From positions 1-64,000 of the forward strand of contig CASFCH010000008.1 in NCBI GenBank assembly GCA_949293315.1: 64,000 bases of DNA, read 5' to 3'. Position 1 is the stretch's first letter, and each line of letters starts with the position of its first letter. This DNA is from an uncultured Oscillospiraceae bacterium (lineage in GTDB: Bacteria > Bacillota > Clostridia > Oscillospirales > Acutalibacteraceae). Made by a program: the position numbers and the translations under genes. The notes beneath the pieces were generated by a model. That model was not told where the DNA came from and searched no databases. It worked only from the letters and a program-made list of their open reading frames with translations. Positions 9,006 through 39,056 of the stretch are shown here, in pieces.

Positions 9006-9046
9006 GGAGCCGGGCGGTCACGCAGATCCGTCCGGCTCCTTTTTTT
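9006..9046 (+). terminator. Terminator of the TetR gene, overlapping the convergent kinase end
   Basis: Stem GGAGCCGGGCGG (9006-9017) with CCGTCCGGCTCC (9028-9039), one wobble, then seven T. The right arm and T-run lie inside the last codons of the convergent histidine kinase gene. Confidence 0.85.
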
Positions 9047-13164: not shown

Positions 13165-14220
13165 TTACCGCTTTTGATACTTATGCAGCAGATCCAGGAT
13201 ATGCTGGCCGCGTACATCCGCCTTTTCCCCGCCCGATACGGCGGCCGAATCCCCGGCGGGAGCAGGCTGTACATCCTGCTGCACAGGTTGAGGCCGGGCC
13301 TCCGCGGGCTGCGGGTCGGGTTCGGACGCTGCGGCCGCGGCAGCTACCCGCAAATCCGGCGTTTGATCCGGATCGGGTGCGCCGGCTCCCGATACCGTGG
13401 GGGCGGCCGTCGCCTGCGCATCCGGGATCGGTTCCGGCTCCGGCTGCGGCGCCGCTTCCACCGCCGGAGGGACATCGGATGCGGTCACAGGACCAGACGG
13501 CCGGATCTCCGCCGTCTGGCGGGCCGGCTCTGCGGGGCGGATGGGCGCCGTCGGTTCGGACTGCGCACCGGCCGGGAAAGACGTACGCGCAGGGCGGCGG
13601 GAACGGTTTAAACTGTCCAGGTAGAGCCCGGCGCTCTGTTCATAGGCCGCCTGAATCTCACAGATTTCGGCATGGGTCGCCTGCCGGACGCGGTCAAATC
13701 CCGCATAGGCGCCGTCAAGTCCGCCGACATTTGCGGAGAGCTCCCTGAGCCGGTCAAGGATCGCCTGCGTCTGATCGTTGATCTGGGCGACCGCATGGAC
13801 AATCTGATCCGATACGCCGGAAAAATCGCGCTGGGCGGCCGCCAGATCCGACCGCGCCCGCTGGGCGGCCGCATCCACATCGGACAGGAACTGATCCACA
13901 TGCTCCCGCGGGGACAAAACCACATCCCGTCCATTTTCAAACGCCTTGATATAGATGTGGCCGATGGATTCCTCCGCGCTCTTCTTTCCGCTCTGCTCCG
14001 TGGCGATCCGCTCATACGCCCGGTTCACCCGGTGCAGCTCGGCCTCACGCGCCGTCAGGCGCGCCTGCAGATCATCGGCGGCCCGACGCGCCTCGCTCAA
14101 CTGCCGCTCCAGCTCCGCGCAGCGCGACGTGGCCGCGTTCATCTGATTTTCCAGCTCGGAGAGGCGCTGGTCCACATCGGCCACCCGATAGCCGCGAAAG
14201 GCTTTTCTCAATTCACTCAT
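13165..14220 (-). CDS. DivIVA-like coiled-coil protein with Pro/Ala/Glu-rich tail
   Basis: 351 residues. The N-terminus FRGYRVADVDQRLSELENQMN resembles the DivIVA/GpsB membrane-binding head. A coiled coil runs over about residues 18-75 (AELERQLSEARRAADDL and on), further helices over 90-205, and a low-complexity tail rich in Pro, Ala, Glu and Gln to the end. No TM helix, so cytoplasmic. RBS AGGAGG at a good distance. It is the last gene of the exopolysaccharide operon, 72 bases after the preceding one. DivIVA-type proteins mark curved membrane or poles, so it may position the synthase complex; that is inference. Confidence 0.75.
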   Translation of the reverse strand: MSELRKAFRGYRVADVDQRLSELENQMNAATSRCAELERQLSEARRAADDLQARLTAREAELHRVNRAYERIATEQSGKKSAEESIGHIYIKAFENGRDVVLSPREHVDQFLSDVDAAAQRARSDLAAAQRDFSGVSDQIVHAVAQINDQTQAILDRLRELSANVGGLDGAYAGFDRVRQATHAEICEIQAAYEQSAGLYLDSLNRSRRPARTSFPAGAQSEPTAPIRPAEPARQTAEIRPSGPVTASDVPPAVEAAPQPEPEPIPDAQATAAPTVSGAGAPDPDQTPDLRVAAAAAASEPDPQPAEARPQPVQQDVQPAPAGDSAAVSGGEKADVRGQHILDLLHKYQKR

Positions 14221-14292
14221 ATTCCGTAACCTCCTGATTCCGTAACCCTGGTAAACAAGGCAACAATCATTTATATCAAACGGACGATCCCG

Positions 14293-16455
14293 TTATTCCA
14301 TCAGGCCCTCCAGTGCCTTCCGGACGATCGCGTATGATTTTTTCAGCCGCGTGTGGAAGGAAGAGCGTTCCTTCGTCGTATAGCCGATATCCGCCAGCGG
14401 GATATCGGAGGCGCCCGGAACGCCGAGCCCGATCCGGATCCCCGGAATATCCGTCATGGTCACGCCGCCCGCGCTGTAGAAGTCCGCCAGACAGACGCCC
14501 ACGGTGCTGTTCATCACATTGAGCAGGTACCACGGGATGCGCACCTCGATCACCTGATCACGGCAGTAAAAATCGGCCAGCGAGCAATACGCCTCACTGT
14601 CGGGATCCGCGATGCCATAGGTCAGCAGGCCGCTCTCCGTATACTGCGGATCGATGACCTCCCCGGTCAGGGGCAGCACGATCTCATTGGAGAGAAACTG
14701 ACGGATCGGATTGTAGATCCCGCTGCCGGGCTGTTCAAACCGGCTGTCCCGCTCAAACACGCCTCGCTCACAGGCATAGGTGTAGTAGAACAGATCCTTA
14801 TAGGCGTCGGTGAGCAGGCGGGTTCCCTCCTCCCCATCAATCACCAGGAGGAAGTCCGCCGCCCCGGTAAAGGAGACGTCATATGCCGGCGCAGCAGAGC
14901 TCCCCTGCCCCGTGATCTGAATCGGGATCAGGATCGTGTCCTCTCCAAAGTGCAATCCATCCGTTTCGATCTTCAGATAGAGATATCCCTCATCCCACAT
15001 GGCGGAGACGGTATTCCCGCCGTACGACGCCACAGGCGCGGCATTTCCCCACTCCTGCGCCAGTCCGTCGATCAGGCAGACGTCGCACTCCCCCGGCTCC
15101 ATTGCGAGCAGGCCATAGCCCTGCTCCGCGGACTGCACATTCGGCGTGCGTGCGGCCGGATCATCCGGCGCATAGGAGACGGTGTTCCAGGTCTGCTTGA
15201 ACCACTCATCCTGCCAGGAGAAGATCAGGGAGCCCGCATAGCCCTCCCGGGCGATGGCCTCCATCATTTTCACGATGGCCTCCCCTTGCTCCTCCTCCGT
15301 CATGCCGCCCTGATCGATCCCCATGGCCGACCGGTGGGCGGCGCCGCGGCTGGTAGAGGTGCCAAACTCCGCAACGAGCACGGGGACGCTGTACTGCGTG
15401 CGCAGATCGGCCAGATAGGCCGCATAGGGGTCCGCCTGGCCCGACTCGTCCGGCTGCAGATACTCCGGCTGATAGTTCATGAACTCCGGATAATACGGGT
15501 AGACGTCCACCGCGGCAAAAAGTCCGCTGTAATACTGCCCGGTCGCCCGGATGGCCTCCGTATGGACCGAGACCCGGTCCTCCTCCTCAAACGGCTCATT
15601 GGTGTGCGTGAGCGTATCGGTGGTGGCCCAATTCAGGAAAGAGACCGGCGTCTGTGCGGAATAGGTCTGCGTCTCATAGTCAATGAGCGTGTCCCCCACC
15701 TCGCACAGGAAGCTCTCAAACGCGCCCGCCTCTTCGGTCGTCGTGAGGTATTCCCCCGTATATCCGGCATGTGCGGTCTGGGCGTTCGTCCGTTCGACAA
15801 AGCCGGGATCCCACTCCAGCCCCAGGATGTATCCGGCCACATACGGGGATACGTCGTGGGCGTAGACGGCGTTTTTGATCTGCCCGTAATCGGTATAGTC
15901 GCTGTTCCCGTGGATGATATCCAGCGTCTCGCGGGCCGCCCGCTTGAAGGCGTCCACGATCCGCCCGTTGTCGTAAAAGGCGTGGTCGCCGTTGTACATC
16001 TCCTCCTCGCTGAACCAGATGCCCTGGACCAGATAGAGAGGCTCCTGTGCGGCGGCGTTGTGATCGTAGAGCGCCGTATAAAACTGCGGGGGCATCACGG
16101 TGAACACCCGTACGGTATTGGCATGCAGGTCGGCGATCTGCGTCAGCCACTCCCGGTACGTCTCATAGGAGACGTTGGGATTGGCCAGATCGGTCGTCGC
16201 CTCCGTCAGGCCCATGTTGACGCCTTTGAGGTAGATGCGCTCCCATGCATCGCCCTGCTCCGTGTAAAAATACGGGTCCACGGCGCGGAAGTGAAGGGTC
16301 ACGCCGCCGCTGTCCACGGCCGGGATCGTCGGGGCGCCGTCCGGATCCGAAGTCTCTGCGGGGGACCCTGACGGCAGCAGCACCCGGGCCAGAACCGCCG
16401 CCAGCACGACCAGTGCGGCCAGGGCCGAGAGGAGGATCACATTCTTTTTGGACAA
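14293..16455 (-). CDS. Membrane-anchored glycoside-hydrolase-like protein (GH clan A type), paralogue 3
   Basis: 720 residues, TTG start two bases after the previous stop with GAAGGAG upstream. An N-terminal TM anchor (residues about 5-27) puts the rest outside. The (beta/alpha)8-type domain of about 75-450 has WERIYLKGVNMG, NTVRVFTVMPPQFY, YILGLEWDPGF with Glu214 as likely acid/base, VPVLVAEFG with Glu363 as likely nucleophile, and SLIFSWQDEWFKQTWN. The C-terminal third is beta-rich and resembles the same region of the 735-residue neighbour. It probably cuts or trims the exopolysaccharide made by the operon. The substrate is not known. Confidence 0.8.
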   Translation of the reverse strand: MSKKNVILLSALAALVVLAAVLARVLLPSGSPAETSDPDGAPTIPAVDSGGVTLHFRAVDPYFYTEQGDAWERIYLKGVNMGLTEATTDLANPNVSYETYREWLTQIADLHANTVRVFTVMPPQFYTALYDHNAAAQEPLYLVQGIWFSEEEMYNGDHAFYDNGRIVDAFKRAARETLDIIHGNSDYTDYGQIKNAVYAHDVSPYVAGYILGLEWDPGFVERTNAQTAHAGYTGEYLTTTEEAGAFESFLCEVGDTLIDYETQTYSAQTPVSFLNWATTDTLTHTNEPFEEEDRVSVHTEAIRATGQYYSGLFAAVDVYPYYPEFMNYQPEYLQPDESGQADPYAAYLADLRTQYSVPVLVAEFGTSTSRGAAHRSAMGIDQGGMTEEEQGEAIVKMMEAIAREGYAGSLIFSWQDEWFKQTWNTVSYAPDDPAARTPNVQSAEQGYGLLAMEPGECDVCLIDGLAQEWGNAAPVASYGGNTVSAMWDEGYLYLKIETDGLHFGEDTILIPIQITGQGSSAAPAYDVSFTGAADFLLVIDGEEGTRLLTDAYKDLFYYTYACERGVFERDSRFEQPGSGIYNPIRQFLSNEIVLPLTGEVIDPQYTESGLLTYGIADPDSEAYCSLADFYCRDQVIEVRIPWYLLNVMNSTVGVCLADFYSAGGVTMTDIPGIRIGLGVPGASDIPLADIGYTTKERSSFHTRLKKSYAIVRKALEGLME

Positions 16456-16457
16456 AA

Positions 16458-18665
16458 TCAGTTCAACTCCTTCAGCGCTTCCTGCAGGACGTAGTAGGAC
16501 GGTTTGAGCCGTTCATGATAGGACGGCATCGTCCACGCCTCGTAGTCATACACGCCGCTGAGTGAGACGGCGCTGCCGCTGCGCATCACGCCCAGCCCCA
16601 CGTGCATCCCGCCGAAGTCCTCGGGCGCGATGCTCTGTGCGTCATAGAGATCGCTCATGATCTGCTTTCCGGACGGATCCATAAAATTGAGCAGCTGCCA
16701 GGGGATCCGGATCTCCAGCACGCCTGTCTCCGCGCTGTAGATAAAATCAGACAGCGACTGGTAGTCTTCGCTCTCCGGATCGCCGTTGCCGTAGGAGAGC
16801 TTCCCCGTCTCATAGCTGCTGAAGGGAATTGTCTGGTTGGTGGTGGGGATCGTCATCTCATACCCGGTGCACAGCCTCATCTGATTGAAGCGCCCGCTGT
16901 TTTGGACTGTATTCGCACTCTCCTCGGCGATCATCTTATACTGTTCCCCATAGAGGAAGTAGAAGGAGTCATAGTAGGCGTCCACCACAATGCGGGAGTT
17001 TTCCGCCCCGTTGATCCACAGGACAAAATCGGCCTCGCGGTCAAAGGCGGCGCCCGTATCGTTCATCCGGCTGTTCCCCTGTCCGGAAATCGTGTCAATG
17101 GGGATCAGGAGGGTGTCGGTGTCAAACTGATAGCCATAGTCCGCGTTCAAGCGCACCATAAAATAGACATACCGCTCATCGCTTGCCATGTACAGGTCGC
17201 CGCAGTCGGCCGACGCCACGCGGTCGCCGTCCGCCCACTCATCGGCCTGGCCGTCCAGAACGCACACCGTATCCACAGCGCCGGGGTCGAATGCCAGCAC
17301 GCCGAAGCTCTGCTCGGACGTCTGAATGTTGGACCAGTAGGGGCGGGCGTCCGCGTCGTCGAGCGCCTCGTTGTTCCAGGTGCGCTTGAACCACTCGTCC
17401 TGCCAGGAGAACATGATCGCGCCCGCATAGCCGCAGTCGTGGATCGAGCGGTACATATCGGCGAGCATATCGCCCTGCTCCGTCTCATCCACACCGCCCT
17501 GATTATAGCCCATGACGCTTGTGTGCGTCACGCCGCGGCTGGTGGGCACGCCGAATTCCGCAATGAGGATCGGCATGGTGTGCACCGACTTGAGCTCCTC
17601 CAGATAGGCCTTATAGGTATTCACCTTCCCATCCTGGTCGACATAATCGAGATAGTCGGTCTGGTAATTCATGGAGTCCGGATAGTAAGGGTACACGTGG
17701 TAGGAGGCAAACAGGTTGGACTTGTAGGCCGCCCGGCTCCGGATGCTCTCGGTGTTGAAGGTGACCAGATCCTCATCCTCATACGGCTCCTCGGGGTGGG
17801 AGAGCGGATCCGTGGTGACCCAGTTGGAAAAGGCCACCGGGCACTGGATGCCATACTGCTCGGTCATGTAGGCAATGACCTTGTCCCCCGCCTCGCAGAA
17901 GAAGGCCTCCAGCGGCGTGGAGCCAAAGGTGTACAGATACGTCCCCTCATACGTATCCCGCTCCGGATTGGCCTCATTGGTGGCCTGGACAAACTTTGGA
18001 TCATTTTCAATCCCCAGGATCCACCCCGCGAACCACTTGGACACATCCGCCGTATAGGTGCCGGAGGCAAAACCGGCCCGCTCCTCGAGCACGGCGTTGC
18101 CCATGATCACATCCACGCAGTTGAGCGCGTCCTGAATAAATTCATTTTTGATCTTGTCATTTTCGGCGTACACATCGCCGTAGGTGGCGATATCGTCCTC
18201 ATCCATCCAGACGCCCTGGAAGAGGTACAGCGGGTGCTCCGCCTGACTGTTGTAGTCATACAGCGCCTGGTAAAACTGCGGCCGCATGGTGGTGTACACG
18301 CGCACGCAGTTGCAGTTCATGTCCGCAATATAGCCGAACCAGCGCAGGTAGTCCTCATAGCTGATGGTCAGCTCGCCGGGGAACAGGCCCGGCTCGCCCG
18401 CGCCGATATTGACGCCCTTCCAGAACACCTTTTCCCATTCTCCGCTGTCCCGGGAATAGACATAGAAATTCTCCCCCTCCGCTTTCACGCGGTAGGAGAT
18501 CCCATCCTCATTGACGTAGTCCAGCGTGTCCACCGTATTGGTCTCCTCCGTCTGATCGCCCCCGAAGGAGATCCTGTGTATCCCGATGATCTCCAGCCAG
18601 CCCATCTGGACCATGAACGCCAGAATGAGCAGCACGCTTCCCACATATATCAGCCATTTCTTCAT
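16458..18665 (-). CDS. Membrane-anchored glycoside-hydrolase-like protein (GH clan A type), paralogue 2
   Basis: 735 residues. An N-terminal TM helix (about 4-27) is followed by an extracytoplasmic domain. Motifs match the neighbour at 14293: WEKVFWKGVNIG, NCVRVYTTMRPQFYQALYDYN, WILGIENDP with Glu220, MPILIAEFG with Glu370, and AIMFSWQDEWFKRTWN. The two Glu spaced 150 residues apart fit retaining clan GH-A enzymes. The start overlaps the glycosyltransferase stop by four bases (ATGA), so the two are translationally coupled. Duplication of this gene within one operon is unusual. Role: processing of the nascent polymer, by inference. Confidence 0.8.
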   Translation of the reverse strand: MKKWLIYVGSVLLILAFMVQMGWLEIIGIHRISFGGDQTEETNTVDTLDYVNEDGISYRVKAEGENFYVYSRDSGEWEKVFWKGVNIGAGEPGLFPGELTISYEDYLRWFGYIADMNCNCVRVYTTMRPQFYQALYDYNSQAEHPLYLFQGVWMDEDDIATYGDVYAENDKIKNEFIQDALNCVDVIMGNAVLEERAGFASGTYTADVSKWFAGWILGIENDPKFVQATNEANPERDTYEGTYLYTFGSTPLEAFFCEAGDKVIAYMTEQYGIQCPVAFSNWVTTDPLSHPEEPYEDEDLVTFNTESIRSRAAYKSNLFASYHVYPYYPDSMNYQTDYLDYVDQDGKVNTYKAYLEELKSVHTMPILIAEFGVPTSRGVTHTSVMGYNQGGVDETEQGDMLADMYRSIHDCGYAGAIMFSWQDEWFKRTWNNEALDDADARPYWSNIQTSEQSFGVLAFDPGAVDTVCVLDGQADEWADGDRVASADCGDLYMASDERYVYFMVRLNADYGYQFDTDTLLIPIDTISGQGNSRMNDTGAAFDREADFVLWINGAENSRIVVDAYYDSFYFLYGEQYKMIAEESANTVQNSGRFNQMRLCTGYEMTIPTTNQTIPFSSYETGKLSYGNGDPESEDYQSLSDFIYSAETGVLEIRIPWQLLNFMDPSGKQIMSDLYDAQSIAPEDFGGMHVGLGVMRSGSAVSLSGVYDYEAWTMPSYHERLKPSYYVLQEALKELN

Positions 18666-20089
18666 GTGCTTTTCCTTTCAACACGGGCATTGAATTCCCT
18701 GCGCTGGATCCTGCCCCAGCTCCCCTTGTATTTGCGGTACCGGATCATGCCGCCGAAGCGGAACAGCGTGATGAGCTGGCGGTACCCGAAATTTTCCAGG
18801 ATCGCATACAGGGACAGCTTCATCGCCTGACGGGACGACATACAGCCCTTGCGCGTATTCTGCTCCAGGATAATACCTCCCACAGAGAGCATGATGCCCA
18901 GAATCGTCGCCATACAGAAATAGAGGATAAAAAAGTACAGGTTCAGTTCCCCGAGCAGCAGGGACAGCGGGATGATGAAGTATCCCAGCGTCTCCACCGC
19001 CGCTCCGAGGTACTCAAACAGCCAGCTGTACGGGAGCGAGACCAGCCCCACGGACCCGAATACGGGATTGAAGGTCATGAGGAGGTGCGATCTGAGCGTA
19101 TCGAACAGGCCGATCTGCCACCGCCGCCGCTGGACCTGCAGGTCCCGCAGGCTCATGGGCCCCTGCGTCCAGCAGATGGCCTCCGGGCAGAATTTGACCG
19201 TGTACTTGCGCCTGTGCGTGCGCATAAACCGATGGATGCGCACCACGATCTCCATATCCTCTCCGATGGTGTTGGTCTTATAGCCGCCGGCATCGATGAC
19301 AACCTGCTTATTGAACACGCCGAACGCGCCCGACACGATCAGCAGCGCCTTGCCCCAGGCGAGCCGCCCCGCCAGAAAGGAGCGGAAGTACTCCACGATC
19401 TGGAAGCGCTCGACCATCCGCTTGGGCAGCTCGAACCGCTTCCACCGGCCGTCTTCGATCAGGGAGCCGTTTGCAATGCGCACAAATCCGCCCGCCACGA
19501 CCGTGGTCGTGTCCTTGAGGAATTCGTTGCCCAGAATCAGCAGCGCATCGCGCTCAATACGCGAGTCCGCGTCCAGGCAGGCGTAAAGCGGGTAGCGCGA
19601 CAGATTGATCCCCGCGTTGAGCGCGTCCGACTTGCCGCCGCTCTCCTTATCGACATAATAGAGGTTCGGATAATCGGCGTTATAGTAGACCCCCAGCACC
19701 TCCTGCGTGGGAATTTTCACCTTGACCGCGCCCTCGATGGGATACAGGCCAAACGCCTCGATCATATTGCGGTGGGTGCCGTCGGTCGAGCCGTCGTTGA
19801 CGACGATGACCTCAAACTCGGGATAGTCGAGCCTGAGCAGATTTTTGACATTGTTGACGATGTTTTCCTGCTCATTGTGCGCCGGTATGATCAGCGAGAT
19901 CGGCAGCAGATTCTGAGAATCCGCGTACCGCATATAGTCCTCGGAAATTTTCTGCTTATCCTGCCGGCGTACCCGGACAAACGCGATGATCAGCTGAATC
20001 AGATAGATCACGCTCAGCAGCAGGGTATAGGCCATGCAGAAATAGTTAAAGAAGTGAATGAAGAGGCGCACGATATTCAGTATTGTCAT
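18662..20089 (-). CDS. Processive family-2 glycosyltransferase (polysaccharide synthase)
   Basis: 475 residues. One or two TM helices near residues 10-36, then a cytosolic GT-A domain with LPISLIIPAHNEQENI, VVNDGSTDG (Asp99), LDADSR (Asp173, Asp175), IGEDMEI (the GED motif, Asp278) and QRRRW (320-324), the D,D,D,QxxRW set of processive synthases. A C-terminal membrane bundle of about four helices (330-440) forms the likely polymer channel. No PilZ domain is visible, so c-di-GMP would act on expression rather than directly. Overlaps both neighbours by ATGA. A beta-linked hexose or N-acetylhexosamine polymer is the natural guess. Confidence 0.9.
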   Translation of the reverse strand: MTILNIVRLFIHFFNYFCMAYTLLLSVIYLIQLIIAFVRVRRQDKQKISEDYMRYADSQNLLPISLIIPAHNEQENIVNNVKNLLRLDYPEFEVIVVNDGSTDGTHRNMIEAFGLYPIEGAVKVKIPTQEVLGVYYNADYPNLYYVDKESGGKSDALNAGINLSRYPLYACLDADSRIERDALLILGNEFLKDTTTVVAGGFVRIANGSLIEDGRWKRFELPKRMVERFQIVEYFRSFLAGRLAWGKALLIVSGAFGVFNKQVVIDAGGYKTNTIGEDMEIVVRIHRFMRTHRRKYTVKFCPEAICWTQGPMSLRDLQVQRRRWQIGLFDTLRSHLLMTFNPVFGSVGLVSLPYSWLFEYLGAAVETLGYFIIPLSLLLGELNLYFFILYFCMATILGIMLSVGGIILEQNTRKGCMSSRQAMKLSLYAILENFGYRQLITLFRFGGMIRYRKYKGSWGRIQRREFNARVERKST

Positions 20090-21186
20090 TGAAGGGCACC
20101 CCCGTTCATTTTTACCTGTTTGTACAGCGCGCTCTTGACGGCGTCCGCCGCGTACTTATCGTACCCGCCGAGCACCTGCTCCACATAGACCAGATCCTCG
20201 TCGATCTGAACGATGGCCTTTGCCGCGGCGCTGCGCACCCACCACTCCTCATCCTGCGTGGCGTGTACCAGCGCCTCAAGCGCGGTGGGGGTCGCGATTT
20301 TTTCCAACCCGGACACCGCGGCAAGCCGTACGATCCAGTTTTTGTCATTGAGGGCGACGGCCATCGTATGCTCATACTTCGGGTCCCCAAACTGTGCGAG
20401 CGCCTTCACGCACGCGATCTTGAGATTCCCGTCCCGGCTGTCCATACCGTCCATATAGAGCCCTGCAAGCGCCTCCAGCCGGTCACCGGTGTAGGCCTTG
20501 ACGGCGGTGGCGCGGATGTAGTCGTCACACGTCTCATACAGGCGCCGCACCATCCGCACACGGTCCCCGCTGTAGGCCTGAAGCAGCTCCAGAAGCACCC
20601 GGTGGGAGTACCGCCGGTTTGTCTCGCACTTTTGCGCAAAGGCCACCACGGATTCCTCGTCCCCCAGCTCGGAGAGCGCCATGGCCGCGTTGTACACCAG
20701 ATCCGTATGCTTATCATCGAGCAGCGGGCGGATCTCCTCAATCTTTTCCCGGGCCATGAAGTCCGCCAGGCGGCGCGCCGCATAGCTCTTCTCATACCGG
20801 TTCCCTTTTTCAAGCCGCTCGGTGTAAAACGGAACGGGATCGAGCCGTTCATACAGCCGCCCCAGCGATGCCTGCTTTTCCTCCGGAAGATCAGCGGACA
20901 TGCGCATGAGCTGGATAAACTGAATGACCGCCTCATCCTTTTTAACCGGGTCCTCCCCGATATACGCAAAGAGCGCGTCCAGCTCGGCCTCACGGGAGGA
21001 GAGCGTGGGCGAATACAGGAAGGCCTCCAGCATGGCGTGAATGCGGGCGTTGATCTCCCCCTTCTGGAGATCGGCCTCCTCGTTCTTTCGGGACAGGATA
21101 TACAGCCACAGGTACTCAAAGCACAGCGCCAGAATAAAGATCAGCACCAGAATGGCCGCTAAAATTTCATAGGAAAATTCTACCAT
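20086..21186 (-). CDS. Membrane-anchored HEAT-repeat protein
   Basis: 366 residues. An N-terminal TM helix (about 8-30) is followed by alpha-alpha hairpins, including EKSYAARRLADFMARE, DLVYNAAMALSELGDEESV, DYIRATAVKAYTGDRLEAL, NLKIACVKALAQFGDPKYE, WIVRLAAVSGLEKIATPTALEAL and EWWVRSAAAKAIVQIDED, the pattern of HEAT/PBS-lyase-type repeats. Such arrays bind other proteins. Its stop overlaps the start of the glycosyltransferase, so it is probably a scaffold or regulatory partner of the synthase on the cytosolic face. Confidence 0.85.
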   Translation of the reverse strand: MVEFSYEILAAILVLIFILALCFEYLWLYILSRKNEEADLQKGEINARIHAMLEAFLYSPTLSSREAELDALFAYIGEDPVKKDEAVIQFIQLMRMSADLPEEKQASLGRLYERLDPVPFYTERLEKGNRYEKSYAARRLADFMAREKIEEIRPLLDDKHTDLVYNAAMALSELGDEESVVAFAQKCETNRRYSHRVLLELLQAYSGDRVRMVRRLYETCDDYIRATAVKAYTGDRLEALAGLYMDGMDSRDGNLKIACVKALAQFGDPKYEHTMAVALNDKNWIVRLAAVSGLEKIATPTALEALVHATQDEEWWVRSAAAKAIVQIDEDLVYVEQVLGGYDKYAADAVKSALYKQVKMNGGALQ

Positions 21187-21226
21187 GTATTCGCCTCCCT
21201 TCCTGTTTCGGAATCATGCGGAGAAT

Positions 21227-24200
21227 TTAACCGTTCCCCTGGGAGAAGTACCGGCGCAGAATCTCACACGCCGCCTTTTCCCGGATGTCATAGGTGATTT
21301 CCTGCGCCGTCCACGGCGTCAGATCCAGCCGTTTATAGCCGGCAGACTGCTTCGTCTCCGGGAAAATGTACACCGTGTCCATGTTCTCCTTATTGCCCAC
21401 AAGGACGGAGAAGATCATGCCGTCGGTGGCCATCGTCTTCAACGTGCCGTTTTCCGCCCCGTTGATCACAAGCGCGGAGGCGGGATCGGCAAAATTCAGC
21501 ATCGCCCACGGGATCCGGATAAAGAGCGTGACGCCCGCCTGATAAAAGTGGGTGTTCGACTCCGTAAAGTTCCCGTAATGGAGCACGGACACCAGATCAT
21601 AGCTGGCGGTATAGCTCTCCGCGGAGTCATACTGCCCCGCGCTGCGGTTGTAACTGTGGGCCACGTACAGGGAGGCGGACGTCCGGCTGTCGAACTTGAC
21701 GACGTATTCCATCCCCGATTGACTGTTGGCATAGTACGCCGCGTCGTAGTAATATTCGCCGTCGTTGCGCTGATAGGTGTCCAGTCCGATGATCAGCTCA
21801 TTGAGATCGTAGTCAATATCGGAGCGCATCAAAAGCGTCAGATAGACGTACGTCTCATTATAGGATACCTGCATCTGCTGCATCACGCTCGCCTCGCTGC
21901 TGTCCACCAGCTGCATGGCGACTTCGGACGGCATGTGGGACTCCACCGCCACTACGCCGGTCGTCTCCGCCCGGTCCGTGGGGTTCTGCCACAGCCCGCC
22001 GTCGGACAGGGGCAGCGTGTACGCCTCCGCCTCCAGGGAGGAGGCGCTCCAGTTGTCATTCAGGTCCGCGATCAGCATCCCCATGTATCCCTGATCGTCC
22101 GCCGCGCGCAGCATCCGCACGATGCCGTCGCCCTGCTCCTGCTCGCTCAGGCCGTTGACGGAGCTCTCCTGTCCAAACATGTCGGAATTGGTGGAGAGGC
22201 CGGCCCGGTCGATCAGCACGGGCCCGCTGCACAGCGCCCGAACGGAGCCGATATAGCCGCCCCAGGAAAAGCTCCCAATGTTGTCGGAATAGGCGCCGGC
22301 AAAGGACTGCTCGTCATTGAGCAGGGCCGCGTCGTCCGATCCCAGCGAATAGGAGGTGAAATACAGCTGCGCCGCATCCTCCGCCGGCGCCAGGTTGGAC
22401 AGGTTATAGGTCGTACGGCCCTCCGCCACCCAGGGGGCGCCCGTCAGGCGCTCCGCGCCCGAGCAGACGCTGACCGGCTGCATGCAGCCGTAGGTGCTCT
22501 GCATGTAATTGAGGGCATAGTCACACAGCTCCGCCGCCAGCGCTTCCACGCCGTTGGCCGCAGAACTGATATAAGTCCCGGAATAGGACCTGCCCTGCCC
22601 CTCTCCGGCCATCAGGGCGTCCACTGCCGGATCATTCAGGCGGGGATCGACGATATAGGCGATGACATACGGGGATACATTGTAGGCATAGGTGGCCGTC
22701 TCCCGCGTCCCGTTCCCCTCGATCTCCCCGCTGCCGTGTACGGCGGCGATCGCGGCGGCGATATTCGCCTTCACCGCGTCCAGATTCTCAAGCGTCTGAG
22801 CGGGCTCAATGGAGGGCGGCGTCATGATGCCCTGAATCAGATAGATCGGATTTTCCGCAGATTGATTGTACTCGCCCAGCGCGCGGTAAAATTCAGGCGG
22901 AAGCAGGTCGTACGCGCGCACACAGTTGCCGCCCATATTGCCGAGCGACTGGATCAGAGCCGAATAGTAGGACGCATCCCTTGTGTAGTGGTACCGCTCG
23001 TCCCCGGGGGCCTCCCCGTTGATATTAAATCCCTTCAGGTCAAAATCCTGCCAGGAGCCGTCCGCGAGCACCTCAAGCCCGTCCTCGGTCACGCGCGCGT
23101 TCTGCTGTTCTTCCTCCGCCTGATCCGCCACAGGATTTTTCAGCGTATCTTTTAAAATCTGTTTCATCAGCGGCTCATAAAAGCGCCAGTAAAAGTTGGT
23201 GACATCCCCATCCCTGTCAAAGGCGAGCAGACGGAAAAACACATCGGCAAACATGAAGTTGGAGATCTGCCGCTCGGTGGTATAGTCGTTAAAATCGCCG
23301 GCAAAGTAATAGGCGGGGGCCTCGCCCTCCTGCTGCCGACGCGTGACGGCGGCAAAGGTCGTCGTGTCGGAGACGGCGGCCAGTTCCTCCGCCCCGGTGG
23401 CGTTTACATTGAAGGAGTAGGTGGCGATCACCTGCGTACTGCTGTCCGCCTCGATGAGCTCAAACCAGTTGTAGTAGTTGAGCGAACGGCGGCCGAATTC
23501 CTCCCGATACTCATCCGTGATGGAGATCTTCAGCAGATTTTTGCTCTCAAAATCCGTCTTTTCCTCCAGGACGAGGATATCGCCGTCCCGGGAGACCAGC
23601 AGGATGCCGGGGCCAGAGCAGTTCCACTCCTGCCCATATTTGGCGCGCCACATATCGGGCGCCCAGTAGGGGACGTCGGTCAGATCCTGCAGATCGTAGA
23701 TATAACGCCCCACCCATCCGGTGGTGGAAATGCCGAAAAGCGATTCCAGCTCCGTGCGCACCGCATCGTCCGTGGCGGTGGTCAGGATATCCTGCTCCCC
23801 GATGACGACGGAGCCCGAGGAATGGCACAGGGAGATCTCGTTCATCTCCTCGGCCGTGATGCCGCGATCCTCATAGATCTCCACGCCGTAGGTATCGGAG
23901 AGATACAGCAGATCGGGGATCTCCTCCAGATCGGTCAGGGAGTTGCTGCCCGTGATCCGGTCATTTTCGTCAAGTTTGGGACCATAGTAGTCGGCCGTGT
24001 GGTCATAGGCCTTTCCGGTCTCCGGATTGACGATCTTCATATAATCCATCAACCAGTACAGGCCGACGTGCTTGCGGTAATTGTTGGATACATCGCCCTG
24101 ATAGGACCAGCTGTCGGCCGCCGTGGCGGGCACCGTCTTATCCACCACGGCCACGGAGAGCTCCCGCCTGGGCATGAGGAGCCAGACGATAAAGGAGCAC

Positions 24201-24274
24201 GCCACCAGCGCAATGATGCACAGCGGGATCAGAAAATAGGGCTTGAGCAGATATTTGGCTTTAAATTTTTTCAT
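21227..24274 (-). CDS. Large membrane-anchored protein with degenerate GH-like domain, paralogue 1
   Basis: 1015 residues. TM anchor about 13-34. Residues 40-370 form an unassigned extracytoplasmic domain (LSVAVVDKTV, DLLYLSDTYGVEIY, VVIGEQDI); its Rossmann-like strands recall glutaminase or deacetylase folds, but I cannot place it. Residues 400-800 match the two GH-like proteins downstream: LKGFNINGEA, GGNCVRAYDLLPPEFYRALGEYN, YVIAYIVDPRLNDP. The Glu of the GIENDP motif is replaced within IVDPRLNDP, and the nucleophile Glu of IAEFG aligns with Arg690 of IDRAG. It is thus probably not a glycosidase but a polymer-binding or structural relative. Confidence 0.8.
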   Translation of the reverse strand: MKKFKAKYLLKPYFLIPLCIIALVACSFIVWLLMPRRELSVAVVDKTVPATAADSWSYQGDVSNNYRKHVGLYWLMDYMKIVNPETGKAYDHTADYYGPKLDENDRITGSNSLTDLEEIPDLLYLSDTYGVEIYEDRGITAEEMNEISLCHSSGSVVIGEQDILTTATDDAVRTELESLFGISTTGWVGRYIYDLQDLTDVPYWAPDMWRAKYGQEWNCSGPGILLVSRDGDILVLEEKTDFESKNLLKISITDEYREEFGRRSLNYYNWFELIEADSSTQVIATYSFNVNATGAEELAAVSDTTTFAAVTRRQQEGEAPAYYFAGDFNDYTTERQISNFMFADVFFRLLAFDRDGDVTNFYWRFYEPLMKQILKDTLKNPVADQAEEEQQNARVTEDGLEVLADGSWQDFDLKGFNINGEAPGDERYHYTRDASYYSALIQSLGNMGGNCVRAYDLLPPEFYRALGEYNQSAENPIYLIQGIMTPPSIEPAQTLENLDAVKANIAAAIAAVHGSGEIEGNGTRETATYAYNVSPYVIAYIVDPRLNDPAVDALMAGEGQGRSYSGTYISSAANGVEALAAELCDYALNYMQSTYGCMQPVSVCSGAERLTGAPWVAEGRTTYNLSNLAPAEDAAQLYFTSYSLGSDDAALLNDEQSFAGAYSDNIGSFSWGGYIGSVRALCSGPVLIDRAGLSTNSDMFGQESSVNGLSEQEQGDGIVRMLRAADDQGYMGMLIADLNDNWSASSLEAEAYTLPLSDGGLWQNPTDRAETTGVVAVESHMPSEVAMQLVDSSEASVMQQMQVSYNETYVYLTLLMRSDIDYDLNELIIGLDTYQRNDGEYYYDAAYYANSQSGMEYVVKFDSRTSASLYVAHSYNRSAGQYDSAESYTASYDLVSVLHYGNFTESNTHFYQAGVTLFIRIPWAMLNFADPASALVINGAENGTLKTMATDGMIFSVLVGNKENMDTVYIFPETKQSAGYKRLDLTPWTAQEITYDIREKAACEILRRYFSQGNG

Positions 24275-26529
24275 CGCGACTCATCCTCTGACAGTATACG
24301 TTCCCGCAGAGCCAGCAGCGCATCCGCGCAGCTGAGGAACGCATCGGCTATGGCCGGATCAAACAGGATGTCTCTCTGCTCCGCGATATATCGCTTGACA
24401 TCCTCCGCCGCCCAGGGCTCCTTATAGCTGCGCCTGGACAGCAGTGCGTCCACCGCATCCACTACCCGCACCAGCCGCGCCGCCGGATCGATCTGGCCGC
24501 CCTGCAGTCCCAGATAGCCCGACCCGTCAAAATTCTCATGGTGTTCCAGCGCAATCATGGCCGCCGTCTCAAAGAACGCGCCCTTTTGCAGGGAGAGGAT
24601 ATTGTATCCGACCTGCGTATGCTGCTTCATCTGCTCCAGCTCCGGCGGATCCAGCGCACCCTCTTTTTCCAGAATACTCTCCGGCACGGCGATCTTGCCG
24701 ATATCGTGGGTCATGGCCGCCAGCGAAATCAGCCTGGCGCGCTCCTCCTCCATGCCCAGCTCCATGCACAGCTCGTAGGAGAGGGCGGAGACAATAATCA
24801 GGTGACTCCGGGTGGATCTGCTTTTCTGCTCGACCACCGTCGCCAAATTGATGAAAAGCTCCTCCTGAATGTCGCTCACATCGTGCCGCAGGCTGAAATT
24901 CTGATAGACGGTGGAGAGATTCAGGAATGCGGCCTTCATAATATTTTCAGTCTCGGCTCCGACGCCGTACAGAATATTTTCCAGGTGGATGACCGCACTG
25001 TGGCTGTCCTGCTGGAAGAGCATATCCGCAGAGGTCCTGCCGATGAGAATCTTTTTCTCCTGACGGTCCAGGTGCTCATAAATCACCTGATAATCACATT
25101 TCTCCACCTGTCCGTCGTTATAAATCTCCTCAAATTCATCGCCGGCGCGCACCCCGATGCTCGCATGCACATCGACCGATTCCCCGCCGAGCTCCGCATT
25201 TTTCTCAATGATACCGGACAGGCTGCGGGCAATCTCGATCAGGAAAGGCCGCTCCTCCTTCTGCCGGAGCGCCTCCGAGATCAAATTGGCGACGTCCTCA
25301 AGCCATGCGCTGTCCGCGCGCATCTGCTGCACGCGCTCCTGCTTTTTCACGTCCAGATAGACGACCTGCCGGCAGTAGATCACAAACATCACCACACACA
25401 TTAGGGCGATGCTCCCGTAGAAGAGATAGCCGGACATGAGCCCAAGCCCGAGGAACAGGCCGCACGTATTGTAAAGGCCCACCAGCGCCGCATAGATCAG
25501 CAGTCCGCGCATCGCCCCCATATGGGGCGTCTCCTCCGAAGCGGCGTCGGCAAAGACGCCATTGGCCCGGATGGCGATAAACAGCTGGGCCGCCGTCATG
25601 ACCACCGCCGCCACACGCACCGCCCAGGCGGTCTGGAACAGTGGGATCAGCGCGCAGACAATGGCCGCCGGAATCCACACCGCCGCATGGCGCAGCGCTC
25701 TGCCGTGGCAGGATAGAATGGTCGTATAGACGAGCATCATCAGAAGCATCTGCGTCAGCAGCTGCACGGGGAACCAGTACGGGGCCGTCAGCAGCGCCGT
25801 TGCCTGGGCGTAGGTATAGAGCATGCCGGCTGCGCCGCCGCAGAGGACCGTGACGGACAGCAGCAGCAACCGCCGGATGTGGCCGCTTCTCCCGGCCAGG
25901 CACAGCCCCAGCACAAAGAGGCCGGCCCCCAGCAGAATCAGCGACAGGGACACGCCGAATCCAATATATTGGGAAAAACTCTCAAAAGCGGAGATTTCCG
26001 CCGGCTCCACATAGGCCTCCAGTGAAAACGCGAGCGGCGCATACAGGTAGACGTCCAGCTCCCGCGCCTCGCCCCCGGGCACCGTTATGCTCTGATAGCT
26101 GCCGCCTGTGAAGCTCTGCGTGCCATAGCCGTTATCCAGCACCTGCTCGCCGTCAATCTCCACGCGCAGGGGATTGTGGGCCGTCCGGAGCACCAGCCGA
26201 AAATCCTCGCGGGAGGCCGGCAGGGTGTACTGCAGCCGCATATAGGGGGCGCCGAACGCCTTAGATACACGATTTTCACCGGTGGCCTGCTGATAGGAGG
26301 AGAGATCCCCTTCGATCGCCCCGGAATCGGCGGCGCAGACAAACCGCCAGTCCGTGATCGCGTTCTCCCGGGCAGGCAGAAGCGTCTGGCCCATAAAGTG
26401 GATGAGAAACGTCCCCACGAAGAGCACCACTGCGACGATGATCGCCGTGCGTGTTCTCCCGGGCATATTCCGTACCCTGCGCTCGACCGTTTTCCGGCGG
26501 GCGCCGGGGGTCTCCTTTTTACGCGGCAT
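24271..26529 (-). CDS. Seven-TM receptor with cytosolic HD-GYP domain
   Basis: 752 residues from the ATG at 26529, preceded by GGGAGAA; longer starts at 26535 and 26547 exist. Order: TM helix; extracytoplasmic beta-sandwich of about 50-185 resembling 7TMR-DISM ligand domains; seven TM helices of about 190-400; a linker domain of about 410-560; HD-GYP of about 565-745 with AAMTHDIGKIAVPESIL, MKQHTQVGYNIL, LEHHENFDGSGYLG and RVVDAVDAL. GYP is changed to GYL, but the HD and HHE metal ligands remain, so c-di-GMP hydrolysis is likely still possible. It overlaps the next gene by four bases. A c-di-GMP-degrading gene inside a c-di-GMP riboswitch operon suggests negative feedback. Confidence 0.88.
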   Translation of the reverse strand: MPRKKETPGARRKTVERRVRNMPGRTRTAIIVAVVLFVGTFLIHFMGQTLLPARENAITDWRFVCAADSGAIEGDLSSYQQATGENRVSKAFGAPYMRLQYTLPASREDFRLVLRTAHNPLRVEIDGEQVLDNGYGTQSFTGGSYQSITVPGGEARELDVYLYAPLAFSLEAYVEPAEISAFESFSQYIGFGVSLSLILLGAGLFVLGLCLAGRSGHIRRLLLLSVTVLCGGAAGMLYTYAQATALLTAPYWFPVQLLTQMLLMMLVYTTILSCHGRALRHAAVWIPAAIVCALIPLFQTAWAVRVAAVVMTAAQLFIAIRANGVFADAASEETPHMGAMRGLLIYAALVGLYNTCGLFLGLGLMSGYLFYGSIALMCVVMFVIYCRQVVYLDVKKQERVQQMRADSAWLEDVANLISEALRQKEERPFLIEIARSLSGIIEKNAELGGESVDVHASIGVRAGDEFEEIYNDGQVEKCDYQVIYEHLDRQEKKILIGRTSADMLFQQDSHSAVIHLENILYGVGAETENIMKAAFLNLSTVYQNFSLRHDVSDIQEELFINLATVVEQKSRSTRSHLIIVSALSYELCMELGMEEERARLISLAAMTHDIGKIAVPESILEKEGALDPPELEQMKQHTQVGYNILSLQKGAFFETAAMIALEHHENFDGSGYLGLQGGQIDPAARLVRVVDAVDALLSRRSYKEPWAAEDVKRYIAEQRDILFDPAIADAFLSCADALLALRERILSEDESR

Positions 26530-26587
26530 AAGCATTTCTCCCGTCACTCATAGTCTCAAATAAAACAGTGTCTCTCCTTCGGCCGGA

Positions 26588-27295
26588 TCAGGTCATGGCG
26601 GCCAGATAATAGCCGCTGTCCCCCTGGCGCAGGGTGAGGACCGTTGATCCCGCCGCCTGCGTCTTCCCCGCATCCGAATAGTACTGGACCTCCAGCGTGT
26701 AGGCGCCGCCGCCCGCGTCCCGCAGTGTGGCCGCCGCGTATACCTCGGCGCTGTAATCGGGCTGCCACATCTCAAAATACCCGGCGCCGGGCACGTACAG
26801 ATCGCTCTCCTCCACATTTTGGGGGCAGGAGCCGAACAGCCGGGTCACCTGTGCGCGGATCTGCTCCACGGTCGCCTGCCGGTAGGTCATGGCGGCGGGC
26901 GCCAGATCCACCAGACAGCCGGTGCCCGCATACAGGTAGCAGAAGGCGTACTGCACCGCTACGCTCACCGGCAGCTCCTCCACAGAGGAAAAGGAATCTA
27001 TCGCCATAAAGTGCTGCAGCTCATATCCCTGCTTGACATAGCGAAGGGGCTCCATCCCTGCGGGAATATCCGTCTGGAGGGAGACGGCAATCCCCTCCTC
27101 CTGGACAGGCTGCGCCGATCCGGACTCCGCCCGGTCCGCGCCGGCCAAGGGCTCGTGCTCCTGCGTCTGCGCGCCCTCCACGGTCTGATAGCCGCGCCCC
27201 TGCGTAAAGTAGACGGCCAGGCCAATACACAAGGCCACCGCCAGCACACAGGCCACGGCAATCCCTATGTTCTTTTTACTGACAATATTCCGCAT
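26588..27295 (-). CDS. Membrane-anchored extracytoplasmic protein, first gene of the operon
   Basis: 235 residues. TM anchor about 9-30, a Glu/Gln/Ala-rich linker to about 70, then a compact domain with LQHFMAIDSFSSVEELPVSVA, CYLYAGTGC, MTYRQATVEQIRAQVTRLFG and the beta-rich end TLEVQYYSDAGKTQ and STVLTLRQGDSGYYL. No family recognised. RBS GGAGGGG before the ATG. It is the first reading frame after the c-di-GMP riboswitch and terminator, 58 bases ahead of the HD-GYP gene start. An accessory role in polymer export or surface assembly is inferred from position only. Confidence 0.75.
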   Translation of the reverse strand: MRNIVSKKNIGIAVACVLAVALCIGLAVYFTQGRGYQTVEGAQTQEHEPLAGADRAESGSAQPVQEEGIAVSLQTDIPAGMEPLRYVKQGYELQHFMAIDSFSSVEELPVSVAVQYAFCYLYAGTGCLVDLAPAAMTYRQATVEQIRAQVTRLFGSCPQNVEESDLYVPGAGYFEMWQPDYSAEVYAAATLRDAGGGAYTLEVQYYSDAGKTQAAGSTVLTLRQGDSGYYLAAMT

Positions 27296-27343
27296 GCGGA
27301 CCCCTCCCCGGCGGCTTCTGAAAAGGCGCCGTTTTTCGGCAAC

Positions 27344-27390
27344 AAAAAAAGCTGCGAACTGTTGCGGAGCTTTTCCTCAACAGCTGCAGC
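27344..27390 (-). terminator. Riboswitch-associated intrinsic terminator
   Basis: On the minus strand a stem is built from GCTG..GCTGTTG and CAACAGT..CAGC, followed by seven T. It starts at the 3' end of the GEMM aptamer and ends about 50 bases before the operon start codon. This is the expected place for a transcriptional expression platform. Confidence 0.88.
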
Positions 27391-27462
27391 CAGACGAGCG
27401 TAGTAGTGGAACCACCTTAGCCTCTCGACTTTGCGTCCTTGATTTTCATCAAGTTTGCCAAA
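27385..27462 (-). ncRNA. Cyclic-di-GMP-I (GEMM-I) riboswitch, copy 2
   Basis: Minus-strand core: GGCAAAC, a P2 stem TTGAT/ATCAA capped by GAAA, GGACGCAAA, CGAG...GGCTAAGG, GTGG/CCAC inner arm and a returning CTCG. All invariant GEMM-I blocks and the GAAA tetraloop/receptor pair are present; P1 looks short. The terminator at 27344-27390 overlaps its 3' edge. It governs the 14-kb exopolysaccharide operon. Because the 3' strand of the aptamer shares bases with the terminator stem, a c-di-GMP ON switch is the simpler reading, but this is not proven. Confidence 0.88.
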
Positions 27463-27526
27463 TTCGATTCAAACCGATATTCTGTTTCCCCAGATATCCG
27501 CTGCATGCGGCGGGGAATGTAAAAAC

Positions 27527-27555
27527 AGTATAAACAATCCAACCGCCTTTGTCAA
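27527..27555 (-). promoter_or_regulatory. Promoter of the c-di-GMP-regulated exopolysaccharide operon
   Basis: Minus-strand TTGACA (27550-27555), 17-base spacer, TATACT (27527-27532). The start site would lie about 60 bases before the GEMM-I aptamer. It sits between the end of the GGDEF gene and the riboswitch, so the operon has its own strong promoter. Confidence 0.88.
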
Positions 27556-27594: not shown

Positions 27595-29103
27595 TCAGAC
27601 CGTCTCATGCCAAAACGCCTGATTCCCGCCGCGTCTTTTGGCCTCGTACAGGGCGCTGTCCGCCGTTTCGTACAGACGGGCATAGGACCACCCCGGAGGA
27701 GCCATTGCAATGCCGACGCTGCATCCGGTATGGATATGAACGCCGCTGCATTCCAGCACGGGTACACGGCGGACGATCTCATCCGCATAGCGGCGCACAT
27801 CCATCCCGCCGCCCGTGGGGAACAGTACGGCAAACTCATCGCCGCCGACCCTGCCCACGCGCGCGCCCGCCGGAGCGATCTCCCACAGCAGATTCGCCAC
27901 CGCTTTGAGCACCTGATCGCCGGCGGGATGGCCGTATGTATCGTTGATATTTTTAAAGTCATCCATATCCACAACGAACATGGTCATCCGCTCGCCGTCA
28001 TGCAGATCCTGAATCTTTCGCTGTCCATAGCTCTCAATAGCCGCCTTGTTGAACGTGCCGGTAAAGGCATCTATCTGCACCTCGCGCTCAAGCTGGATAA
28101 GGCGCGCCTTTTTATCCGTGATATCTGCCAGCATCCCGATGGCGGAAGTGGGCTCCCCGCTCTGGTCGGCCTGTGCGATCACTGTCAGCTCAAACCAGCG
28201 CCTCTCTCCCGTTTTCAGCGGCAGATACAGCTCCATCTTCTGATGTTCCCTGCCGGCACGGACATCCTCCATGCACCTGAGAATCTCCCGGCGCTGCTCC
28301 GGCGTCAGCGCGCGCGCTGTACCGATAAAGGTCTCAAACTCCTGAATCATTCCGGGGAACCCGAACATCTCCTCCCAGCCGCCGGACATCCGCATCCACC
28401 GGTTGCGGATATCCCATTCAAAGGTGATAAACTGCTCGTTTTTCCGGATGAGCTCGTACTGCTCCTGGCTCAGCTGGAACTGGTGCCTGCTCTCCTCAAG
28501 CGCCTGATTCATATGCTGGATCTCGCGCTTCTGCCGCAGCTCCGTGCACAGGTGGCGGTAGCGCACGATATATACGGCCGCACACAGGATGGCGGTGATG
28601 GTAAAATTGATCACCTCGCCCGAGGAACCCGCCCGCCACAAAAACAGCACAAACAGCAGGTAATTGCCCCACAGGTTGCACATGGCATACACCGGACGCA
28701 TGGTGACCAGTGTGGAAAACGCCACCAGAGAGGTGACAACCATGATATTCCCCACCGCGCTGGAGCGATAGATGTCATACATATTAAATACGGTCTGCCA
28801 TAACACGATCACGCCGGCCGCCGTCATGTGCAGATAGTAGCGCTGTACCGTGCTGATTTTGAGCAGCAGATCCGCCAGCAGAAAAACGGCGCACGCCGCG
28901 GCAAGAAAAACATAAAAGCCGAAATAGATGCGATTGTTCAGCGTACCCAGACCCGAATCGGAGAAAAACAGCACGCGTATGATGTTGAAAAGCTCCACCA
29001 GGATAGTTCCACCGCAGATCACCCGCAGCAGCATACGGTTGAGCCGCACGGCCTCCTGTATGAAATCCATGCGCATGTTTTCTGAAAATGAACTCCGCAC
29101 CAT
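27595..29103 (-). CDS. Membrane diguanylate cyclase with PAS and GGDEF domains
   Basis: 502 residues from the ATG at 29103 (AAGGGG upstream; a GTG at 29106 is also possible). The N-terminal half has about six TM helices (residues 20-190), then a coiled linker, a PAS domain of about 210-330 (FITFEWDIRNRWMRMSGGWEEMFGF) and a GGDEF domain from about 340. The active site VGGDEFAVLF is intact, with the usual DDFKNINDTYGHPAGD metal/substrate motif. No RxxD inhibitory site is seen at the normal spot, so product inhibition may be absent. It makes c-di-GMP next to a promoter read through a c-di-GMP riboswitch. Likely co-transcribed with the HPt and REC-HD-GYP genes. Confidence 0.93.
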   Translation of the reverse strand: MVRSSFSENMRMDFIQEAVRLNRMLLRVICGGTILVELFNIIRVLFFSDSGLGTLNNRIYFGFYVFLAAACAVFLLADLLLKISTVQRYYLHMTAAGVIVLWQTVFNMYDIYRSSAVGNIMVVTSLVAFSTLVTMRPVYAMCNLWGNYLLFVLFLWRAGSSGEVINFTITAILCAAVYIVRYRHLCTELRQKREIQHMNQALEESRHQFQLSQEQYELIRKNEQFITFEWDIRNRWMRMSGGWEEMFGFPGMIQEFETFIGTARALTPEQRREILRCMEDVRAGREHQKMELYLPLKTGERRWFELTVIAQADQSGEPTSAIGMLADITDKKARLIQLEREVQIDAFTGTFNKAAIESYGQRKIQDLHDGERMTMFVVDMDDFKNINDTYGHPAGDQVLKAVANLLWEIAPAGARVGRVGGDEFAVLFPTGGGMDVRRYADEIVRRVPVLECSGVHIHTGCSVGIAMAPPGWSYARLYETADSALYEAKRRGGNQAFWHETV

Positions 29104-29139
29104 CACTGCCCCTTTCCGAAAAAATTGCAGTTTTGGGCT

Positions 29140-29493
29140 TCAGCGCCCGGCTGCGGCCGCGCACACCGCCTCATACACCTGCGTGACGGACGGCATCATC
29201 GCCCGCGCCGCATCCCAGCTGCCGCCGCGCAGCAGCTCCACCTGATCGCTCACCAGGCGGTACAGCCGGCCCATGGAAAGATTGCCGCACACCCCCTTGA
29301 GCGTGTGGGCCGCGCGGAATGCGCCCTCCCGGTCTTCCCGCTCCATGGCCTGCACGAGTTCCCCATAGGACGGATCCTCCGGAAACCGCAGCAGCATCCG
29401 CTCGAGCAGCGTCTCATTGCCCATAAAGCGCTCGAGCGCATCATCGACGGATATGCCGCACGCCTCCAGCGCTCTTTTCCTCTCCTGCGTCAC
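29140..29493 (-). CDS. Stand-alone HPt phosphotransfer protein
   Basis: 117 residues, GTG start overlapping the stop of the response regulator (GTGA). All-helical, with the phosphorylatable His in FRAAHTLKGVCGNLSMGRLYRL, the classic HPt motif. It would shuttle phosphate from the receiver of a hybrid kinase to another response regulator. The hybrid kinase at 9018-11561 is the only one in the window. The partner is probably the REC-HD-GYP protein encoded immediately before it. Confidence 0.92.
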   Translation of the reverse strand: MTQERKRALEACGISVDDALERFMGNETLLERMLLRFPEDPSYGELVQAMEREDREGAFRAAHTLKGVCGNLSMGRLYRLVSDQVELLRGGSWDAARAMMPSVTQVYEAVCAAAAGR

Positions 29494-38945: not shown

Positions 38946-39022
38946 CCGCCCGTGGCGAAGCTGGATATCGCAGTGGATTCCGATTCCAAAGGACGGGGGT
39001 TCAAATCCCTCCGGGCGGGCCA
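38946..39022 (+). tRNA. tRNA-Arg (anticodon CCG)
   Basis: Full cloverleaf of 77 bases with encoded CCA. Acceptor CCGCCCG (38946-38952) pairs with CGGGCGG; D stem GCGA/TCGC; anticodon loop TTCCGAT, anticodon CCG; T arm GGGGG-TTCAAAT-CCCTC; discriminator G. One mismatch closes the anticodon stem. It decodes CGG, a codon that should matter in this GC-rich genome. A terminator follows four bases later. Confidence 0.95.
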
Positions 39023-39024
39023 GA

Positions 39025-39054: not shown

Positions 39055-39056
39055 AA

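Follow-up and report, generated by a model that had tools for sequence, protein, structure and literature searches.

Among the described systems closest to the locus considered here is NELoc-2 of Clostridium perfringens, which has been listed gene by gene as a disease-associated locus with no polymer function proposed (PMC2879425), and whose family 2 glycosyltransferase (GT2) has been named either a chitin synthase, with its relevance left unclear, or simply a glycosyltransferase, no polymer machine being proposed (PMC2879425, PMC11677781). The Pel loci of Gram-positive bacteria, pelDEADAFG, carry a CotH-VTC-DUF4956 accessory module (PMC7112168) and offer a second point of comparison. The DNA analysed here, called the window below, comprises the 64,000 nucleotides at positions 1 to 64,000 (forward strand) of contig CASFCH010000008.1, assembly GCA_949293315.1, from an uncultured Oscillospiraceae bacterium, and it contains an eight-gene operon behind a riboswitch for cyclic diguanosine monophosphate (c-di-GMP). 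We argue that this operon probably encodes a synthase-dependent exopolysaccharide system in which c-di-GMP controls expression and a HEAT-repeat subunit stands in place of PilZ and BcsB.

The operon and its leader

The eight open reading frames, named A to H, run in one direction on the minus strand from 27295 to 13165 and follow a leader composed of a promoter, an aptamer and a terminator. These features are as follows (TM, transmembrane; GH, glycoside hydrolase):

27527..27555, minus: sigma-70-like promoter TTGACA-17-TATACT, 11 of 12 consensus matches, beginning 40 bases past the stop of the upstream GGDEF gene
27382..27469, minus: GEMM-I (c-di-GMP-I) riboswitch aptamer of the operon, RF01051, 68.8 bits, E 2e-11
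27344..27391, minus: intrinsic terminator, whose 5' arm opens with the aptamer's invariant 3' GGCUGC
26588..27295, minus: A, single-pass membrane-anchored protein, 235 residues, with orthologues in five type I loci
24271..26547, minus: B, HD-GYP protein with seven TM segments, 758 residues, predicted c-di-GMP phosphodiesterase (HD_5, E 3e-24)
21227..24274, minus: C, membrane-anchored N-terminal domain plus dead GH domain, 1015 residues, both catalytic glutamates lost
20086..21186, minus: D, membrane-anchored HEAT-repeat protein, 366 residues, predicted cytosolic subunit of the GT2 (HEAT_2, E 2e-32)
18662..20089, minus: E, processive GT2 polymerase, 475 residues (Pfam GT2; motifs D, DxD, ED, QRxRW)
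16458..18665, minus: F, membrane-anchored clan GH-A hydrolase or transglycosidase, 735 residues, E220 and E370 retained
14293..16455, minus: G, paralogue of F (41% identity), 720 residues, same catalytic pair retained
13165..14220, minus: H, coiled-coil protein with a DivIVA-like N terminus (a weak label), 351 residues, no TM segment

The genes are tightly packed: B/C, D/E and E/F overlap by four bases (ATGA type), F and G are two bases apart, and the remaining gaps measure 40-72 bases. The original prediction, made from the letters of the window and a list of its reading frames, had placed a promoter, a GEMM-I element and a terminator before eight packed genes with several ATGA junctions, and all of this holds in the coordinates and scores given above. 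Its gene labels fared unevenly, since HD-GYP, HEAT and GT2 are recovered by Pfam while the DivIVA assignment of H stays below all cutoffs (15.8 bits against a Pfam cutoff of 28, E 0.014); H is conserved in seven of the type I loci defined below. Protein A has no Pfam domain above cutoff. In B the HD domain bears HDxGK and the GYP motif reads GYL, and on these motifs B is predicted to be an HD-GYP phosphodiesterase.

The aptamer scores above the gathering cutoff of RF01051 (35 bits), was found again in a genome-scale search, and lies in a leader whose folding gives z = -3.3 against shuffles. The CUGC of its GGCUGC is invariant in the 17 aptamers compared, and a terminator led by GGCUGC (or GCUGC) occurs in all leaders examined, namely eight of type I, three of them judged by eye, and six of type II. 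Because the 5' arm of the terminator holds invariant aptamer bases, the ligand-bound aptamer and the terminator would compete, and the operon's GEMM-I is therefore inferred to be an ON switch. The reverse arrangement, in which c-di-GMP promotes termination and the machine is active at low c-di-GMP, has its precedent in the OFF-type GEMM-I elements known in Clostridioides; we consider it improbable here, given the shared bases in every operon leader read and given that exopolysaccharide at low c-di-GMP would be unusual.

The GH-HEAT-GT2 core and its relation to known systems

The GH family is present in 21 of 295 genomes at the level of the order, in 28 of 391 at that of the class and in 23 of 398 at that of the phylum. 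Around it 58 loci were read (a few are the same genome under two names), of which 47 have a GT2 gene and 46 a HEAT gene no more than 6 kb from the GH gene. The core, GH-HEAT-GT2, recurs across Bacillota in three layouts: type I with HD-GYP, C, HEAT, GT2, GH and GH, often with the DivIVA-like gene; type II (22 loci) with VTC, DUF4956, CotH, GH, HEAT and GT2, sometimes with EAL; and a bare GH-HEAT-GT2. GEMM-I lies upstream in all nine type I loci whose upstream region is intact and in 13 of the 22 type II loci, so that the HEAT-GT2-GH block behind GEMM-I, for which the original prediction had advised looking in other Clostridia, does exist there, across many families. In Paenibacillus cellulosilyticus (L097) GEMM-I is followed by GH, a C-like gene, HEAT and GT2, and in Deinococcus radiophilus GH, HEAT and GT2 are consecutive. 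The HEAT-GT2 pair also occurs with a YaiO or tetratricopeptide-repeat (TPR) protein in Mesorhizobium and Erythrobacter and by itself in a haloarchaeon, and at these loci no GH was found. These alphaproteobacterial and haloarchaeal pairs (L098 4922-7383, L100 4971-7371, L099 4895-7392) are accompanied by a response regulator, and their GT2 proteins are 39-40% identical to that of the window.

The published gene list of NELoc-2 (VTC, "tubulin/FtsZ", CotH, a 685-residue hypothetical protein, HEAT, GT2) reproduces the type II layout, "tubulin/FtsZ" fitting the place and size of DUF4956 and the hypothetical protein those of the GH, a likeness that is drawn from gene order and sizes in the published table and not from sequences. 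Although the gene set had looked undescribed at first reading, its core cassette is therefore not new to the literature: going by that gene list, the other layout of the core was already set out in 2010 (PMC2879425), without a polymer function. The cassette has thus been seen before, while neither its interpretation as a class of GH-HEAT-GT2 synthases nor its control by a riboswitch appears to have been described in the open PubMed Central papers searched. The core of the window aligns with type II loci, but, unlike NELoc-2, its eight proteins contain no VTC, DUF4956 or CotH by Pfam, and the operon instead carries the HD-GYP protein, the pseudo-GH C, a second GH and the DivIVA-like gene.

Gram-positive Pel loci have their accessory module in common with the type II relatives and also combine c-di-GMP with exopolysaccharide; the presence of this module at type II loci supports an exopolysaccharide role. 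PelF, PelG and PelD are, however, absent from the eight window proteins (Pfam, NCBIfam), whose polymerase is a processive membrane GT2. The nearest named GT2 model is that of the PgaC/IcaA synthases of poly-N-acetylglucosamine (PNAG), yet NCBIfam PgaC_IcaA gives 126 bits against a cutoff of 422, and neither a deacetylase nor a GH153 partner was recognised in the set. With BcsA-BcsB the operon shares a processive GT2, a hydrolase and c-di-GMP, but it lacks PilZ, BcsB and GH8; with ccsZABHI (PMC7710045) it shares a Gram-positive GT2 and an extracellular clan GH-A enzyme, but GH5, MBOAT and DHHW acetylation genes are missing by Pfam and the GT2 is not a BcsA orthologue. No component of Bcs, Pel, Pga, Alg or Ccs was thus recovered in the set, in agreement with the original prediction that it follows none of these layouts, and no PilZ was found anywhere in the genome. 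The mixed-linkage glucan synthase RiGT2 of Romboutsia ilealis is likewise a clostridial exopolysaccharide GT2 without BcsB, but it was rejected as the named system because it has PilZ, a C-terminal domain that RiGT2 needs for activity; no HEAT partner is reported (PMC10374906). A zetaproteobacterial stalk cluster considered for its CotH has BcsB-like and GT2 genes and no HEAT, and is a different system (PMC8250860); HEAT repeats are also mentioned in Xanthomonas and lipocone papers, which proved unrelated.

The polymerase E combines C-terminal TM segments with the processive motifs, as expected of a processive membrane GT2 synthase, and 26 homologues show no variation at D99, DAD173-175, ED277-278 and QRxRW320-324. 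Its donor could not be read from profiles, as the PNAG, cellulose and chitin models all stay below cutoff (for the NCBIfam CelA equivalog, 32.8 bits against 699). Gene fusions link the parts with one another: L063 encodes a single protein of 1378 residues made of HEAT, GT2 and the C N-terminal domain, L090 joins HEAT and GT2, and L067 joins GH and HEAT. These fusions point to a single complex in which HEAT, GT2, GH and the N-terminal domain of C would act together. Combined with TM segments, hydropathy and positive charges, they would put HEAT on the cytosolic side along with the catalytic domain of GT2, and GH and the C domain on the outside of the cell.

Since the HEAT subunit occupies the place of PilZ and two genomes have it fused to GT2, one may ask whether c-di-GMP also, or mainly, controls activity through an unrecognised site on HEAT or on the GT2 C terminus. 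BgsA, a GT2, provides the precedent, as it binds c-di-GMP without PilZ (PMC5567048). Unlike a ligand site, HEAT is poorly conserved (13-22% identity across loci outside type I), and the HEAT-GT2 pair is also found in haloarchaea, which are not known to have c-di-GMP; we therefore hold this kind of control to be quite unlikely. The original prediction that c-di-GMP sets expression rather than activity gains indirect support from the ON-type leader and from the lack of PilZ, either in the genome or, by Pfam, in the GT2, but the case of BgsA keeps this from being proof.

Glycoside hydrolases F and G and their dead paralogue C

F, G and C have no match above cutoff in Pfam, NCBIfam or PDB sequences. 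The structure model of F (mean predicted local distance difference test score, pLDDT, 75.6) is a clan GH-A barrel with fold matches of Z 23-28 to GH157, GH2 and GH5 chains, a GH157 beta-1,3-glucanase coming first (Z 28.1, 15% identity) and GH2 enzymes next (about 25). The likeness to GH157 is a structural top match, and a profile search of PDB sequences found nothing. Members of the GH family give weak matches to the GH72 glucanosyltransferase profile (best E 4e-5), and F and G fall below the Pfam gathering scores for GH72 and GH113. E220 and E370, placed on strands 4 and 7 by motif and alignment and not by superposed active sites, are invariant in 35 GH proteins. F and G are accordingly predicted from the model to be clan GH-A glycoside hydrolases of a family without a curated sequence model, and the resemblance to GH157 and GH72, taken by itself, suggests that the polymer may be a beta-glucan.

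In C, both catalytic glutamates are gone in 11 of 11 orthologues, and thus C is a conserved pseudo-enzyme. One or both glutamates are still present in more distant proteins composed of the same two domains; the C-like protein of P. cellulosilyticus (L097 4767-7868, plus strand), with the nucleophile kept and the acid/base lost, is a half-decayed stage. The type II GH on a Planococcus maritimus plasmid (L096 2811-4880, plus strand) is without the nucleophile, so loss of a catalytic glutamate occurred more than once.

A few observations on these families may be recorded here. The complete type II cassette of the Planococcus plasmid (VTC, DUF4956, CotH, GH, HEAT, GT2) lies near a Qat anti-phage gene. 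Stand-alone proteins made of the C N-terminal domain and a GH domain occur in Bacillota (L076, L077, L078, L079) with no GT2 or HEAT gene nearby, and those of L076, L077 and L079 keep the nucleophile. Two Paenibacillus encode similar TIM-barrel-like secreted proteins beside the GH genes (L041 12190-13071, minus strand; L097 1281-2378, plus strand), the latter being the first gene after GEMM-I.

The closeness of the GH fold to GH157 beta-1,3-glucanases and the name of a sister species, which suggests a poultry gut, could be taken to mean that the locus serves catabolism or remodelling, with F and G breaking down a glycan of the host or its diet and with an incidental GT2. To this we give hardly any weight, as the operon encodes neither a transporter nor a binding protein, the GH is usually accompanied by GT2 and HEAT, and GH is fused to HEAT in L067. 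A more serious, though still unlikely, possibility is that GT2-HEAT makes a wall-bound or septal/polar surface glycan, capsule- or spore-like, and not a released matrix, with the DivIVA-like protein targeting division sites and F and G attaching the chain as transglycosidases. Such a product would fit the DivIVA-like gene in the operon, the weak GH72 matches and the membrane anchors on all extracellular parts. The DivIVA match is nevertheless weak and the gene is missing from type II and bare loci, while control by c-di-GMP, shared with a secreted repeat protein, suits matrix production.

The c-di-GMP circuit, the proposed mechanism and its meaning

The exopolysaccharide reading also draws on the surroundings of the operon, in which the following features lie:

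27595..29106, minus: U, PAS-GGDEF diguanylate cyclase of the membrane, just upstream of the operon; no other GGDEF was found in the genome
29140..29493, minus: W, HPt-like protein, from sequence and neighbourhood only
29490..30578, minus: V, response regulator with a canonical HD-GYP domain; apart from B, no further HD-GYP was found in the genome
12932..13026, minus: second GEMM-I, heading the next transcription unit directly downstream of the operon, 68.8 bits
12898..12937, minus: terminator-like hairpin belonging to the second riboswitch; it also takes in the ribosome-binding AGGAG
11737..12897, minus: I, secreted protein with Listeria-Bacteroides repeats behind the second GEMM-I (Flg_new, E 4e-9; N terminus resembling a signal peptide)

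Searches of the source genome (2.37 Mb, 89 contigs, 97.5% complete) returned one GGDEF, two HD-GYP and two GEMM-I, all five lying between 12.9 and 30.6 kb in the window, and no EAL. A GEMM-II search of the genome gave no hit, though its control gave none either, and further receptors of other kinds or genes on missing contigs may exist. In the sister species, Candidatus Onthovicinus excrementipullorum (L038; G001), the one GGDEF and two GEMM-I are all at the same locus. Across the 14 genomes with GEMM-I in our census, 17 of the 22 elements are at the core locus, which is the sole GEMM-I site in 10 of them. The second GEMM-I is kept at the same position in six relatives (L034-L038, L042); as the AGGAG in its hairpin sits just 5' of the ATG of the repeat protein, it may act on termination, translation or both. 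Neither this element nor the genome-wide uniqueness of the upstream GGDEF had been used in the original prediction. A hybrid sensor kinase (9018-11561, minus strand) and the HPt protein and response regulator-HD-GYP (29140-30578, minus strand) flank the locus, and these possibly form a phosphorelay that feeds c-di-GMP turnover. Farther away, the stretch 38946-39128 of the window (plus strand) has a tRNA gene and, 34 bases after it, a Gut-1 small RNA (RF01706).

We propose that these parts probably work together as follows. The upstream GGDEF protein would make c-di-GMP, which on binding GEMM-I would keep the 3' GGCUGC from the terminator and allow read-through into the eight genes. The membrane GT2, with HEAT on its cytosolic side, would then polymerise and extrude a polysaccharide, probably beta-linked, that the anchored GH-A enzymes F and G may trim or remodel outside the cell, while the dead paralogue C may bind or guide the chain near the exit and the DivIVA-like H may position the machine on the cell. 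The second GEMM-I would turn on the secreted repeat protein, which may join the matrix. Because the operon holds its own HD-GYP protein, which would lower c-di-GMP, a negative feedback loop is likely.

Several points weigh against this picture. Polymer production has been shown for no member of the system, GEMM-I was not found in nine type II loci nor beside most loci without accessory genes, and the operon is without a sugar-nucleotide pathway gene. The overlap of aptamer and terminator takes in few bases of the aptamer core, and OFF-switch GEMM-I elements exist in some clostridia. The GT2 falls far below every equivalog cutoff, the role of C is a guess because its structure model is poor (mean pLDDT 39), and the genome assembly is incomplete (97.5%, 89 contigs).

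A bolder reading, tenable but a little short of an even chance in our judgement, is that HEAT-GT2 represents a separate and widespread synthase class, with a cytosolic HEAT protein for the PilZ/BcsB partners, that in Clostridia is placed under c-di-GMP-I riboswitches together with a GH-A family outside the present classification and a dead paralogue that is conserved, and that is served by the whole detectable c-di-GMP circuit of the genus. The system could be such a separate class if a HEAT-GT2 complex were shown biochemically. With one cyclase, two phosphodiesterases and two riboswitches in about 19 kb, the c-di-GMP network is compact and traceable from signal to polymer, and the dead paralogue C raises the question of what job a spent glycosidase has in a synthase. 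If true, our reading would lengthen by one the short list of synthase classes known from Gram-positive bacteria and would supply a mechanism for NELoc-2, a disease-associated locus that has been listed since 2010 without a function.

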